This document shows, piece after piece, positions 36,574-59,665 of a stretch of 64,000 bases of DNA. A model generated the notes under the pieces. The model was not told the DNA's origin. It searched no databases and was given only the letters and a program-made list of their open reading frames with translations. Both the position numbers and the translations under genes were made by a program. The stretch comes from Achromobacter xylosoxidans (lineage in GTDB: Bacteria > Pseudomonadota > Gammaproteobacteria > Burkholderiales > Burkholderiaceae_B). The stretch is taken from NCBI RefSeq assembly GCF_001457475.1, contig NZ_LN831029.1, forward strand, positions 6,448,001 to 6,512,000, read 5' to 3'. Position 1 is the first letter of the stretch; the number at the start of each line of letters is the position of its first letter.

Positions 36574-36673
36574 GGGCGGCTCAAGGGTTCTTGAGCCGCC
36601 CGTTGCGTTGGCGGGCGGGGGCGGCGGGGCTACGATTGCGGTCCGGAGCGAAGGCTCCGGACCGCAATCGTAG
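36574..36673. repeat. Inverted-repeat element, copy A (two perfect hairpins)
   Basis: Between the dehydrogenase gene and rodA. The first hairpin is GGGCGGCTCAAG (36574-36585), loop GGTT, CTTGAGCCGCCC (36590-36601). The second is a perfect 20-bp stem, CTACGATTGCGGTCCGGAGC (36630-36649), loop GAAG, and its exact complement (36654-36673). There is no T-tract, so neither is a standard terminator. GTTCTTGAGCCGC (36587-36599) and 27 bp at 36623-36649 recur identically, at nearly the same spacing, in copy B at 58782-58845. Confidence 0.85.
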
Positions 36674-36724
36674 GCGCGCCCACCCGTGCGCCCACCGCCC
36701 CGGGCGGCCTACGAAGAAAAAAGC

Positions 36725-56097: not shown

Positions 56098-58020
56098 ATG
56101 AAACCCCTGCACCTGCTGCTTTCCATCGTGGCGGTGGCCTGCCTGGCCGCCGTGCCCCTGGGCGTGACCAACACGTACTACCTGCACCTGATCGAAACCA
56201 TCATGATCTATTCGATCCTGCTGTTCGGGCTCGATATCGTGGTGGGCTACACCGGCCAGGTGTCGCTGGGCCATGCCGGCCTGTTCGGCATCGGCTCGTA
56301 TGTCGCCGGCGTGCTGTTCTTCCATCTGCAGATGCCGATATGGGTGATCCTGCCGGCCGCCATCCTGATCGCGGCGGCTTTCGGCGCGGTGCTGGCGTTG
56401 CCGGCGCTGCGGGTCACCGGACCCTACCTGGCGATGGTGACGCTGGCCTTCGGCACCATCATCCAGATCCTGATCAACGAGATGACCTTCCTGACCGAAG
56501 GCCCGCTCGGCATCAAGATCCCCAAGCCGTCGATCGGCGGCCACATCCTGACCAAGAGCGAGTACTTCTGGCTGGTGGCGGCGTTGCTGGTGCTGTCGCT
56601 GATCGTGGTGCACCGGATCCTCAAATCGCACCTGGGCCGCTCGTTCGAGGCCCTGCGCGACAGCCCGATCGCCTCGGACTGCATGGGCGTGTCGGTCTAT
56701 CGCCACAAGGTGTTCGCCTTCGTCATCAGCGCCGGCTTCGCCGGCCTGGCGGGCGCGCTGTATTCGTACTCCGAGCAGTACATCTCGCCCAACACCTACA
56801 ACTTCGAACTCACCATCCTGTTCCTGCTGGCCATCATCATGGGCGGGCGCAAGAGCCGCACCGGGGCGCTGCTGGGCGCATCGATCATCGTGCTGCTGCC
56901 CAAGATGCTGGACGACATCGCCACCTTCCGCCTGATCGCGCTGGGCGTGGCGATCCTGGTGACGGTGGGCAGCGCGATCGCCATCTCCAAGGGCCGCACC
57001 GAGGCCCGCCGGGTGGCGGTGCCGGTGGTCGGCACCATCCTGCTGGCGGTGTTCTCGTATTGGCTGGAGGCGGTGACCGACTGGCGCCTGACGATCTTCG
57101 GCGCCATGATCCTGTTCGTCGTGTACTACCTGCCCGACGGCATCGTCGGCTTCGTGCGCAACCTGTTCTTCTCGACCCGCCGCGCGGCGCTGTCGGTCAA
57201 GAAGGACCTGGTCAAGGAACAGGAAGCGGTGCCCGACGCGGCGCGGGGCCATGGCGAAACGCTGTTGGCGGCCAAGCAGGTGCTGATGCAGTTCGGCGGC
57301 CTGAAGGCGCTGAACCAGGTCGACCTGACGGTCAAGCGCGGCACCATCCATGGGCTGATCGGACCGAACGGTTCGGGCAAGAGCACCATGATGAATGTGC
57401 TGACGGGCATCTATGTGCCCACGGCGGGCGCGGTGGAATTCGGCGGCAAGTCACTGGTGGGCCTGGCGCCGGCCGACATCGCCGCCACGGGCATCGCCCG
57501 CACCTTCCAGAACGTGCAGCTGTTCGGCGAGATGACGGCGCTGGAGAACGTGCTGGTGGGCCTGCACCACACCTTCACGACGGGACTGGCGGGCATCGCG
57601 CTGCGCACGCCGAAGTGGAAGGGCGAGGAACAAGGCGCGCGCGCCCGCGCCCTGGCGCTGCTGGAATTCGTGGGGTTGGAGGACCTGGCCAGCGAAGAGG
57701 CCCGCAACCTGCCCTATGGCAAGCAACGCCTGCTGGAAATCGCCCGCGCGCTGGCGCTGGACCCGCAATTGCTGCTGCTGGACGAGCCGGCTGCCGGCCT
57801 GACGGCGCCGGATATCGCCGAGCTGCTGACGATCATCCGCAAGGTGCGCGACCACGGCATTACGCTGATCCTGATCGAGCACCACATGGATGTGGTGATG
57901 GGGGTGTGCGACACCGTGTCGGTGCTGGACTTCGGCCAGAAGATCGCCGAGGGGCTGCCCAATGAAGTGCAGAGCAACGCCAAGGTTATCGAGGCGTATC
58001 TGGGCGGCGCGCCCGCCTGA
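56098..58020 (+). CDS. Fused LivM permease / LivG ATPase
   Basis: 640 residues combining two usual subunits. Residues about 1-370 form a LivM-type permease (GYTGQVSLGHAGLFGIGSYV; LRDSPIASDCMGVSVYRHKV). From about 388 a complete LivG ATPase follows: Walker A GPNGSGKST (about 422), LPYGKQRLLEIARAL, Walker B LLLLDEPAAGLT and H-loop IEHHMDVVM. The frame is continuous with no stop or frameshift, so it appears to be a true fusion. LivF follows 16 bp later. Confidence 0.92.
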   Translation: MKPLHLLLSIVAVACLAAVPLGVTNTYYLHLIETIMIYSILLFGLDIVVGYTGQVSLGHAGLFGIGSYVAGVLFFHLQMPIWVILPAAILIAAAFGAVLALPALRVTGPYLAMVTLAFGTIIQILINEMTFLTEGPLGIKIPKPSIGGHILTKSEYFWLVAALLVLSLIVVHRILKSHLGRSFEALRDSPIASDCMGVSVYRHKVFAFVISAGFAGLAGALYSYSEQYISPNTYNFELTILFLLAIIMGGRKSRTGALLGASIIVLLPKMLDDIATFRLIALGVAILVTVGSAIAISKGRTEARRVAVPVVGTILLAVFSYWLEAVTDWRLTIFGAMILFVVYYLPDGIVGFVRNLFFSTRRAALSVKKDLVKEQEAVPDAARGHGETLLAAKQVLMQFGGLKALNQVDLTVKRGTIHGLIGPNGSGKSTMMNVLTGIYVPTAGAVEFGGKSLVGLAPADIAATGIARTFQNVQLFGEMTALENVLVGLHHTFTTGLAGIALRTPKWKGEEQGARARALALLEFVGLEDLASEEARNLPYGKQRLLEIARALALDPQLLLLDEPAAGLTAPDIAELLTIIRKVRDHGITLILIEHHMDVVMGVCDTVSVLDFGQKIAEGLPNEVQSNAKVIEAYLGGAPA

Positions 58021-58036
58021 CGCCAAGGACGACAAC

Positions 58037-58759
58037 ATGCTATCGATCAAGAATCTGGAAGCGGGCTACGGGAAGGTGAAGGTGCTGCACGGCATCAGCA
58101 TGGAGGTCCCGAAGGCCAAGGTGGTGACGTTGATCGGCTCGAACGGGGCCGGCAAGACGACGACGATGCGGGCGCTGTCGGGGATGATCCGGCCGACCGC
58201 GGGCGAGGTCACGCTGGGCGGCAAGCGCATCGACGGACTGGAATCGCATCGGATCGCGCGGCTGGGGCTGGCGCATTCGCCGGAAGGACGGCGGGTGTTT
58301 CCGACACTGTCCGTCACGGACAACCTGCTGCTGGGCGCGTTTCCGCGCCTGACGGGGAGCCGGCCCAAGGGTGACGTGCAGGCGGACCTGGGGCGGGCGA
58401 TGGATCTGTTCCCCCGCCTGAAGGAGCGGCGCGAGCAGTTGGCGGGGACGCTGTCGGGCGGCGAACAGCAGATGCTGGCGATGGCGCGGGCGGTGATGCT
58501 GAATCCGGAGCTGGTGCTGCTGGATGAGCCGTCGATGGGGTTGGCGCCGATCCTGGTGGAGGAGGTGTTCCGGATCATTGCGCGGCTCAAGGATGAAGGG
58601 GTGACGATGTTGCTGGTCGAGCAGTTTGCGGCGGCGGCGCTCAATGTCGCGGATTATGGGTATGTGTTGGAGAACGGGCGGATTTCTGTGCATGGGAGTG
58701 CGGAGAAGTTGAAGCATGATCCGGCTGTGGTGGCGGCTTATCTTGGGGGGTCGCATTGA
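58037..58759 (+). CDS. livF: LivF-type ABC ATP-binding protein
   Basis: 240 residues. Walker A GSNGAGKTT, the LivF-typical AHSPEGRRVFPTLSVTDNLL, signature LSGGEQQMLAMARAVM, Walker B LVLLDEPSMGLAP and LVEQFAAAALNVADYGYVLE are all intact. It starts at MLSIKNLEAGYG with a weak AAGGA site. Last gene of the transporter operon; the repeat element B and a terminator follow. Confidence 0.93.
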   Translation: MLSIKNLEAGYGKVKVLHGISMEVPKAKVVTLIGSNGAGKTTTMRALSGMIRPTAGEVTLGGKRIDGLESHRIARLGLAHSPEGRRVFPTLSVTDNLLLGAFPRLTGSRPKGDVQADLGRAMDLFPRLKERREQLAGTLSGGEQQMLAMARAVMLNPELVLLDEPSMGLAPILVEEVFRIIARLKDEGVTMLLVEQFAAAALNVADYGYVLENGRISVHGSAEKLKHDPAVVAAYLGGSH

Positions 58760-58781
58760 GTTTTTGCTGACATGGGGTTGA

Positions 58782-58954
58782 GTTCTTGAGCCGCACGGCG
58801 GGGCGGCGGGCGGTGGCGGGCGGGGCTACGATTGCGGTCCGGAGCCTTCGCTCCGGACTGCCCCGTTGTCAACCTCGTACGCCTTCGGCTCCCTACGGTT
58901 TCCCTCGGGCGCATCTACACGCCCCGCCCGCCACCGCCCGCCGCCCCGCCGTGC
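58782..58954. repeat. Inverted-repeat element, copy B (34-bp perfect terminal arms)
   Basis: The arms 58793-58826 and 58921-58954 are exact reverse complements over 34 bp (GC-only tracts beginning GCACGGCGGGGC and ending GCCCCGCCGTGC). They enclose 94 bp containing a second hairpin, GGTCCGGAGC (58836-58845), loop CTTC, GCTCCGGACT (58850-58859). 27 bp at 58819-58845 and 13 bp at 58782-58794 are identical to copy A (36623-36649 and 36587-36599). The overall form resembles a REPIN or MITE without coding capacity. Confidence 0.85.
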
Positions 58955-59051
58955 TCGCGATTGCTTTGGTTCCGGCGTTGCTGGGGTGAGCCGTGTGCTT
59001 GGCGTTCTTTTGCCGTGGGTGTTCTCGCTGAAGATCTTGCAGGGCCCGCCC

Positions 59052-59080
59052 AAAGGCGGCCGCGCGGGCGGCCTTTTTGG
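59052..59080 (+). terminator. Candidate terminator of the Liv operon
   Basis: AAAGGC-G-GCC pairs with GGC-G-GCCTTT around GCGCG (59052-59076), followed by further T residues. One G-G mismatch. It is 290 bp downstream of livF because the repeat element intervenes. Confidence 0.5.
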
Positions 59081-59169
59081 GCTTACGCGACTTGGTGTGT
59101 TGGCGGATGACGCTGCGCGCTGGGGGGAAGCGGCTTGGCGGGTCGCCTGCTCTTGGAGTGGGGTGGATG

Positions 59170-59205
59170 AAAAAAGGCAGGATTGCGCTTGGTGCAATCC
59201 TGCCT
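59170..59205 (-). terminator. Terminator after ohr
   Basis: Perfect 12-bp stem AGGCAGGATTGC (59175-59186) / GCAATCCTGCCT (59194-59205); on the minus strand it is followed by TTTTTT. 31 bp beyond the ohr stop. Confidence 0.85.
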
Positions 59206-59236
59206 TTGCTTTTGGCGCGCGGGACGCGCGCTGGGC

Positions 59237-59665
59237 TTAGACGGTGATGGTCAGGGTGACGTCGATGTTGCCGCGGGTGGCGTTCGAGTAGGGGCAGACG
59301 ATGTGGGCGGCGGCGACGAGTTTTTCGGCTTCGGCGCGGTCCATGCCGGGCAGCGAGATCTTCAGCTCGGCTTCGATGCCGAAACCGGTGGGGATGGGGC
59401 CGATGCCGACCGAGCCGTCGATGGTGGCGTTGGCGGGCATGGCGATCTTGTCGCGGCCGGCGACGAACTTCATGGCGCCCATGAAGCAGGCCGAATAGCC
59501 GACGGCGAACAGTTGCTCGGGGTTGGTGCCCGCGGCGCCGGCGCCACCCAGTTCCTTCGGGGTGGTCAGCTTGACGTTCAGGTTGCCGTCGCTGGAGACG
59601 CCGGTGCCTTCACGGCCGCCGGTGACGTGGGCGTGGGCGCGGTACAGGACTTTTTCGATCGACAT
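59237..59665 (-). CDS. ohr: Organic hydroperoxide resistance peroxidase Ohr
   Basis: 142-residue thiol peroxidase reducing organic and fatty-acid hydroperoxides. The two catalytic cysteines are visible: C60 ([14 protein letters not shown]) and C124 ([13 protein letters not shown]). The N-terminal [15 protein letters not shown] is also diagnostic. It lies downstream of ohrR on the same strand, 152 bp away, with two OhrR-like operator sites in front. Confidence 0.95.

Follow-up and report, generated by a model that had tools for sequence, protein, structure and literature searches.

Interspersed palindromic repeats are common, and their upkeep and function are mostly unknown. Among them, REP and BIME sequences are conserved imperfect palindromes of ~20-40 nt that lie near 3′ ends, in some cases as inverted pairs, occur with RAYT transposases, and carry a GTAG motif at the foot of the palindrome. 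Another structured repeat, the integron attC site, ends in GTTRRRY and RYYYAAC and is found with IntI nearby. According to the accessible part of Hot et al. (2011; PMC3110155), BRE is a chromosomal repeat with mobile-element features, located mostly between the genes of Bordetella and further Betaproteobacteria, which measures 75-91 bp at full length and may be arranged in tandem. The Bor repeats of Bordetella, in the portion available of Petrillo et al. (2006; PMC1590033), are REP-like stem-loops of 26-30 bp close to coding regions. With regard to the upkeep of stems, the available text of PMC8794818 proposes for RNA genes that template switching creates and repairs stems, thereby yielding multibase compensatory changes.

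The window, that is the whole 64-kb stretch of DNA analysed here, comes from Achromobacter xylosoxidans, whose genome (G000) is a single contig of 6.81 Mb. Between the convergent genes livF (57962-58759, + strand, a livF-like ABC ATPase by Pfam) and ohr (59237-59665, − strand, an OsmC-like protein by Pfam), a repeat search of the window recovered exactly the perfect 34-bp terminal inverted repeats of the original prediction, namely the arms 58793-58826 and 58921-58954, which are 100% complementary and 94 nt apart, as well as the second hairpin claimed within their loop (58834-58845 / 58850-58861). The position just downstream of livF also held, since the livF stop codon ends at 58759, the leading motif GTTCTTGAG begins at 58782, 22 nt past the stop, and the left arm begins 33 nt past it. 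The predicted limits, 58782-58954 or a unit of about 170 bp, proved too short: recognisable conserved sequence reaches, by eye, to about 59120, and the stem forms the leading part of a half-unit of ~340 bp (58782-59120), which at other loci lies opposite an inverted second half. Read along the + strand, this half-unit consists of the leading motif (58782-58790), the left arm of the long stem P1, which is G-rich, the hairpin P2 (GTCCGGAGC-CTTC-GCTCCGGAC, 58837-58858), the hairpin P3 (58871-58900) with an outer helix AACC/GGTT and an inner GCC-TTC-GGC, both covarying, the right P1 arm as the exact complement of the left, a conserved G/T-rich tail (58955-59047), the hairpin P4 (59048-59082), which is a variable stem around GGCCGCGCGGGCGGCC, and the conserved distal motif TTACGCG...GATGACGCTGCGCGC (59083-59120), where the half-unit ends by eye and after which no partner half follows. 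P4 scored terminator-like in a scan that gave 2 sites, P4 included, vs 1.7 in shuffles. By eye, a bidirectional intrinsic terminator look-alike (an A-run, then the perfectly paired hairpin GGCAGGATTGC/GCAATCCTGCC, then a run rich in T) lies at 59170-59213 before ohr, and it was not among the hits of the same scan. The claim that the unit is noncoding is likely right, with no Rfam match at gathering score within the 64-kb window and no Pfam match for the recurrent 80-aa ORF found in the spacer of paired units, but it is overlapped by two mechanically called ORFs, 123 and 124 aa in length. At E<=1, Rfam returned six weak matches for the stretch 58740-59140, which scored far below the gathering threshold and of which five were to miRNA families.

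The repeat is present beyond chance and is dispersed in the genome, in line with the original prediction: a pattern of the inner hairpin matched 38 places in G000 and 40 in genome G002, and its reversed control matched none in either. Most of these matches possess a long stem of their own. With positions 58782-58960 as a DNA query, at least 43 matches were obtained in the source genome from the 40 scored of 119 candidates, two of them being the arms against each other. A common plan of leading motif, long stem P1, P2 and P3 in its loop, and a conserved tail with P4 was found in the 41 interior hits read. Short end motifs are common to the copies, while the long P1 arms differ in sequence from copy to copy, and 62 of 80 units have P1 arms of 33-34 bp. 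P2 is near-invariant in the Achromobacter copies read and altered on both sides in other genera. Two types of unit were distinguished, type 1 with a leading consensus near GTTCTTNAG, of which GTTCTTGAG and its close variants stand in most type-1 copies listed for the source genome, and type 2 (CTTCGTAGG...) with GTAG at the hairpin foot. At six G000 loci a type-1 and a type-2 unit face each other 0.4-0.6 kb apart, their outer ends resembling inverted repeats, and five of these six pairs are closely alike. The window copy between livF and ohr is a solitary type-1 half; the same interval holds both halves in G001, ASV32, A. anxifer and A. animicus, the left one being damaged in A. animicus. A further copy in the window, copy A (36587-36702, no strand assigned; L041), joins a type-1 left half at P2 to an inverted type-2 left half, so that its arms are no longer complementary, and G002 has both units at this place (L110). 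Copy-A-like chimeras also stand in G002 at L095 and in Achromobacter sp. UMC71 at livF-ohr. In A. marplatensis the livF-ohr interval (L153) contains three near-identical tandem 218-bp repeats between a type-1 unit and a type-2 remnant.

The DNA query matched 15 of 151 genomes of the source's own family, three of these only by GC-rich arm pieces, and a covariance model built from the unit interior (R1) matched, at E<=0.01, 23 of the 151 genomes and 8 of 43 genera, its weakest matches lying near 0.01. Among these eight genera, units were read in g1, g19, g7, g9 and g32, and g24, g25 and g17 each gave one to two weak matches per genome. The units of G014, G040, G058, G113, G151, G064 and G091 follow the same plan with other stem sequences. 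In an order-wide sample, in which stricter filters may lose weak matches, R1 matched 2 of 150 genomes, both of the source's own genus. No match was obtained at E 1e-5 in 72,556 plasmid and 50,697 phage records, from which near records may be omitted. Y1 transposase (PF01797) was found in none of G000, G002, G001 and G005, and with two matches in G008. An autonomous, gene-bearing version was sought in the one long pair read (3.5 kb, L270, G058:C1:210300-216000), whose spacer carries two inverted Mutator/IS256-type transposase ORFs (PF00872), one of them shorter; these were read as an IS insertion in the spacer, and the pair was rejected as such a version. The second-genus pair L077 seems, by eye, to follow a gene whose C-terminus is like that of a gene beside copy A, and by this likeness some unit positions may be common to different genera. 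Along the chromosomes, no unit lies among the matches listed between ~3.02 and 5.06 Mb of the 6.81 Mb of G000, or between ~3.03 and 5.99 Mb of G002.

Comparison of orthologous sites indicated that the family is inherited in place. At 29 of 34 G000 loci a copy stands at the same place in G002, with flanks 84-99% identical, and the orthologous copy is absent at 8 loci (5 of G000, 3 of G002), of which 4 were resolved. The L024 and L038 sites of G002 are deletion scars that keep pieces of the unit, L095 is a chimera in G002 and a scar in G000, and the site of the L104 pair holds a PPK2 gene in G000 instead. None of these four resolved absences, a set outside which L030, L035, L040 and L111 lie, amounts to a clean empty site that carries a target duplication. 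The livF-ohr interval, proposed as a place to look for presence and absence in relatives, carries both halves, single halves, scars or a chimera in 13 of 13 named Achromobacter records (scars in A. denitrificans and in the left unit of A. deleyi, the chimera in UMC71), and it provided no usable empty site. In G007, of the same genus, the interval has no unit; two tandem ~85-bp GC-rich repeat copies, BRE-like in size and form, stand in its place (L058), and because the interval thus holds another repeat, G007 cannot serve as an empty site. In five Bordetella contigs examined livF is not adjacent to ohr, and the locus is therefore uninformative for Bordetella. Orthologous copies together with scars and chimeras, the losses being cut at the hairpins, point from sequence comparison to a family that is old and lost through hairpin deletion. 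The thought of a fixed local structure, kept at low divergence in relatives, agrees with the presence of the unit in them, but the copies are divergent and multicopy. The P3 segment is nearer to its closest paralogue than to its orthologue in 25 of 33 units (means 0.95 and 0.86), in a comparison of the best of many paralogues with one orthologue, so that chance favours the paralogue; P3 may be exchanged between copies. As the closely alike pairs also have orthologous partners, exchange between copies would be likelier than movement.

The two P1 arms change together. In 32 orthologous stems of G000 and G002, each at least 25 bp long in both genomes, 1062 pairs were compared, of which 981 were the same, 52 carried double-sided and 29 single-sided changes, and all 52 double-sided changes were Watson-Crick in both genomes; 10 further pairs had no counterpart owing to indels or different stem ends. 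By simple arithmetic, if the two sides changed independently at the observed rate, about 1.4 matching doubles would be expected vs the 52 observed. For the livF-ohr unit in 12 genomes, double-sided changes occurred in 26 of 53 pairs and 92 of 630 cells, with a single G-U cell, and in four helices of the unit. Its covariation score was reached in 0 of 500 shuffles, which ignore relatedness, and its pairing of 96% fell to 34-41% when the partner was slid by 1-3 columns. The coupling of the arms is well supported. The mismatches that do stand were counted in those 75 of the 80 stems of G000 and G002 that reach 25 bp, leaving aside the outer mismatch that all type-2 units have, and 39 of 2451 pairs were non-Watson-Crick, 4 being G-U and 18 A.C on the top strand, with 17 others; read on the bottom strand, 18 of the 2451 would be G-U. 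Since top-strand G-U steps are near-absent, which selection for RNA pairing should leave and template switching within a hairpin need not, the sequence comparison favours arms matched mainly by correction at the DNA level rather than by selection on RNA.

Units are placed just past stop codons and mostly between convergent genes. An ORF of 100 or more codons ends no more than 110 nt before P1 in 36 of 39 units of G000 and 33 of 41 of G002, with a median distance of 33 nt and 38 nt, respectively, in a count that took the longest frame and had no chance control. For the genes around solo units, longer stretches at 20 loci were used, which are 20 of the 25 pattern-matched solo units of G000 and do not include the window copy at livF-ohr, and genes were called from home-made ORF scores rather than annotation. 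The first called gene to the right was on the opposite strand at 18 of 20 loci, the nearest left gene pointed at the unit at 15 and lay on the other strand at 5, and both flanks were convergent at 14, vs a convergent neighbour at 74 of 228 gene ends in background stretches. With a cruder choice of genes, which these longer stretches replaced, 18 of 48 solo units had come out as tandem and 1 as unclear, and several such tandem-labelled loci (L017, L019, L020, L023, L029, L032 and L033) have opposite-strand ORFs of high GC3.

Around the units, base composition was found to be strand-biased. At each of these 20 solo units of G000, the top strand of the unit had more G than C to either side, with mean skews of 0.14 and 0.16 by side vs 0.01 and 0.03 at 3-5.5 kb, and the skew was above 0.1 at 15/20 on one side and 19/20 on the other. 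Pooled over these loci, the halo returned to baseline near -2 kb and +2.5 kb, and third positions of + and − genes were alike; the skewed strand tracks the orientation of the unit and not the strand of the gene. Codon selection was rejected as the source, as + and − genes carry the same top-strand bias. In the ORF ends upstream of units, C at third positions (C3) fell from ~0.38 to 0.09 and T3 rose from ~0.11 to 0.34 over the last 50-100 codons in G000 (36 units), and in G002 C3 went from 0.43 to 0.11 and T3 from 0.09 to 0.29 (33 units). The genes on the far side, beyond their last 20 codons, had a sense C3 of ~0.7 and G3 of ~0.2 (29 genes), with C3 of 0.64-0.74 at 19 of 20 loci. The rise of T is limited to about the nearest 500 bp, and further out G replaces C. 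At the window copy the last 70 codons of livF have C3 0.11 and T3 0.26, and those of ohr, on its own sense strand, C3 0.77 and G3 0.16. The skew of 14 pairs, pooled and partly orthologous, switches sign at the centre. As a background, 58 convergent gene ends had C3 of 0.43-0.44 and T3 of 0.04-0.06 in their last 20 codons, with a slight dip at most. Replication strand bias was rejected as well: with the origin assumed at the contig start, and with L122 and L123 near it and 9 genes less than 2 kb from a unit left out, background leading and lagging genes differed little (C3 0.48 and 0.51), and both sides were positive, too, at the 5 of 20 units with a lagging top strand under this assumption. 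A double-strand break with resection would give opposite skew by side, whereas solo units show the same sign, and therefore one strand is affected rather than two resected ends. Third-position divergence in 20 gene pairs was 0.11-0.16 within 180 codons of the unit and 0.09-0.11 beyond. In other genera the halo was absent or weak at several copies (G133, G014) and strong at others.

Orthologous genes beside different states of the unit served as natural controls for the halo. C3 in the last 70 codons of livF was 0.06-0.24 in 16 loci with element, chimera or scar and 0.40 in G007, which is without one; the values of 0.23-0.24 belong to two scarred loci and the chimera, and MYb9 and Bel, which have a type-1 unit, likewise give 0.24 and 0.21. 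The sense C3 of ohr was 0.76-0.77 where type 1 stands alone in the source genome, G002, A. ruhlandii and A. insuavis, and 0.61 in G007; it was 0.17-0.43 beside an intact type-2 unit (A. anxifer, G001, A. deleyi, ASV32, A. animicus) as well as with a remnant or chimera (A. aegrifaciens, UMC71, A. marplatensis, Bel), and 0.53 in A. denitrificans with its scar. The Ohr protein itself is 100% identical in A. ruhlandii and 99% in A. insuavis. Two loci are exceptions to the simple rule, since they have type 1 only, yet ohr C3 is not raised (A. kerstersii 0.49, MYb9 0.36). For three right-hand genes, hand-picked from 19, in seven further genomes, C3 was 0.64-0.74 with a facing unit vs 0.44-0.65 where none was found, with no within-gene overlap between the two groups; L284, at a contig edge, was not counted, and the units at L291 and L298 were found by the covariance model after the regular expression had missed them. 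The halo is well supported in the source genome, and a few comparisons of orthologues, two exceptions aside, support it as well.

We consider it very probable that the livF-ohr repeat belongs, as one half whose partner is missing here, to an old and vertically inherited family of structured intergenic DNA repeats that often occur in pairs and lie just past stop codons, mostly between convergent genes. How the family would work is a more tentative matter: our leading reading, for which we would claim somewhat less than an even chance, is a 3′-end element that may act at the DNA level and near which the top strand would often be single-stranded, in the manner of an R-loop. The arms would then be kept matched mainly by templated correction, that is template switching in the hairpin, and the exposed top strand would gather strand-specific damage, single strands being prone to C-to-T damage. 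R-loops prefer G-rich RNA, and the likeliest cause of the exposure would be that transcripts of the upstream gene enter the G-rich arm and the large hairpin, stall and form an R-loop, a pair of units making up a two-way end zone between convergent genes. With an R-loop of the upstream transcript, the orientation of the halo would follow that gene, its far side would reach further, and pairs would flip sign mid-way. Several observations sit uneasily with this model. An R-loop should extend mainly downstream, yet the halo also reaches ~1-1.5 kb upstream; the rise of T is confined to the nearest 500 bp or so; divergence near the units is only mildly higher and does not establish a mutation hotspot; the standing P1 mismatches are mostly top-strand A.C and not the G.T expected from top-strand deamination; the ohr genes of A. 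kerstersii and MYb9 break the simple rule; a quarter (5/20) of the solo units have their nearest left gene on the other strand; and the terminator-like hairpin already preceding ohr means that a further terminator is not obviously needed. The uneven halo in other genera has to be accounted for by an R-loop model and by a model of a one-strand gap alike.

Such a gap is what a site of single-strand processing would leave, if the bottom strand folded and were nicked or peeled by a putative enzyme, as at HUH-transposon ends or attC, so that the top strand became exposed on both sides; we regard this as unlikely, although it would explain the upstream part of the halo, whose same sign on two sides fits a one-strand gap and not a double-strand break. 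When DNA energies are used, the bottom strand folds more stably than the top in 73 of 78 units, and with RNA energies it does so in 63 of 78; mismatches in 121 P1 stems, 68 A.C/C.A vs 11 G.T/T.G on the top strand, are mostly bottom-strand G.T wobbles; preferential G.T repair in a top-strand hairpin would, however, yield the same mismatch bias. GNA, GNNA and GNAB are stable DNA loop motifs, and the bottom-strand P3 loops have these forms in 113 of 115 scored units, where a loosened pattern had also caught reversed P2 and 100 of 215 entries without P3 were left out; yet 99 of the 115 also allow a UNCG-like reading of the top strand, a tetraloop set aside for its smaller coverage, both loops being candidates. 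Stable d(GNA) triloops are described in the available part of PMC5815330. Against such a site, PF01797, the sole candidate enzyme searched, is absent from the source genome, and empty sites are missing among the four resolved absences. A structured RNA, each half being a 3′ UTR or small RNA whose selected fold (a terminator, an exonuclease block or an antisense barrier) drives the covariation, appears equally improbable to us. Double-sided changes in four helices, placement after stop codons, conserved stretches of tail outside the stems and recurrence of the plan in other genera would suit it, but the G-U intermediates it expects are nearly missing on the top strand (the 4 of 2451 pairs, and the single cell of the 12-genome set), so that an RNA of the bottom strand, with its 18 of 2451, would fit better; a single mismatch in a 33-bp stem is also unlikely to be visible to selection at dozens of loci, the 2-kb halo is left unexplained, and Rfam gave no match at gathering score. 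The small nonautonomous mobile unit of the original prediction, whether mobile now or formerly, is very unlikely as an explanation: its dispersal in many copies stood, the end motifs of the six pairs resemble terminal inverted repeats and five of the pairs are closely alike, but the copies are orthologous between genomes and thus not recently moved, no target duplication or clean empty site was seen among the resolved absences or at livF-ohr, no Y1 transposase was found in the source genome and no match in plasmids or phages, the alike pairs have orthologous partners, and the nearness of P3 to paralogues in 25/33 is a comparison that chance favours. An ancient mobile origin of the family is still conceivable. 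Just as small a chance is given to an inert relic, in which template switching alone keeps the palindromes perfect and the skew stems from codon selection or antisense RNA. Rho loads on C-rich RNA, and antisense RNA from gene ends skewed in this way would be rich in C and of the kind on which Rho loads. According to the available text of PMC8794818, template switching can fix the pairing of existing stems. Against an inert relic, third positions carry the skew up to ~2 kb off whichever way the gene is oriented, the skew is weaker where the unit is absent, and the P1 length of 33-34 bp in 62/80 units and the plan kept in other genera suggest some upkeep.

The family adds to the interspersed palindromic repeats a variant that is new and unusually informative, and no description of it or of its halo was recognised in a literature search of open-licence PMC full texts. 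The dozens of copies in each genome, together with their orthologues in several species, amount to a natural experiment; arms that change jointly and nearly avoid top-strand G-U bear on the choice between selection and templated correction, and gene ends that stay single-stranded over time are suggested by the way the halo tracks the unit. It is possible, if on balance somewhat doubtful, that these repeats represent a class of elements that exposes one strand across ~4 kb and reshapes neighbouring wobble positions, with orientation choosing the strand and the arms co-evolving at the DNA level. If true, it would mean a built-in mutational asymmetry set by orientation, through a programmed R-loop or a one-strand gap, between convergent genes.

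Among the known systems, REP and BIME sequences are alike in being extragenic palindromes near 3′ ends, some of them in inverted pairs and in many copies per genome, and their GTAG foot motif is also found on the type-2 units; the units described here differ in being much longer, with an unconserved P1 sequence, a ~94-nt loop and orthologous positions, and Y1 transposase is absent in four of the five genomes tested, the source included. With attC, the resemblance by eye is limited to ACTTAAC in a few tails, with no GTTRRRY at the 5′ end of the units. As regards the terminal inverted repeats that the copies of a MITE or nonautonomous transposon have in common, these units have short end motifs alike and long arms that differ from copy to copy; none of the 4 resolved absences (of 8) is a clean empty site. 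As far as the available description goes (PMC3110155), BRE is likewise a mostly intergenic chromosomal repeat, from which the ~340-bp half-unit, single or in inverted pairs, is set apart by description, and the tandem repeat at livF-ohr in G007 is the one closer to BRE by size. The Bor repeats (PMC1590033, seen in part) share stem-loops near coding regions in related bacteria, but are only 26-30 bp long, and as they were compared by description, an overlap with P2 or P4 is possible. Lastly, the template switching proposed in PMC8794818 is a mutation mechanism in RNA genes and not an element family, and its accessible text does not mention a strand-bias halo, but the multibase compensatory change that it describes would fit the P1 arms.
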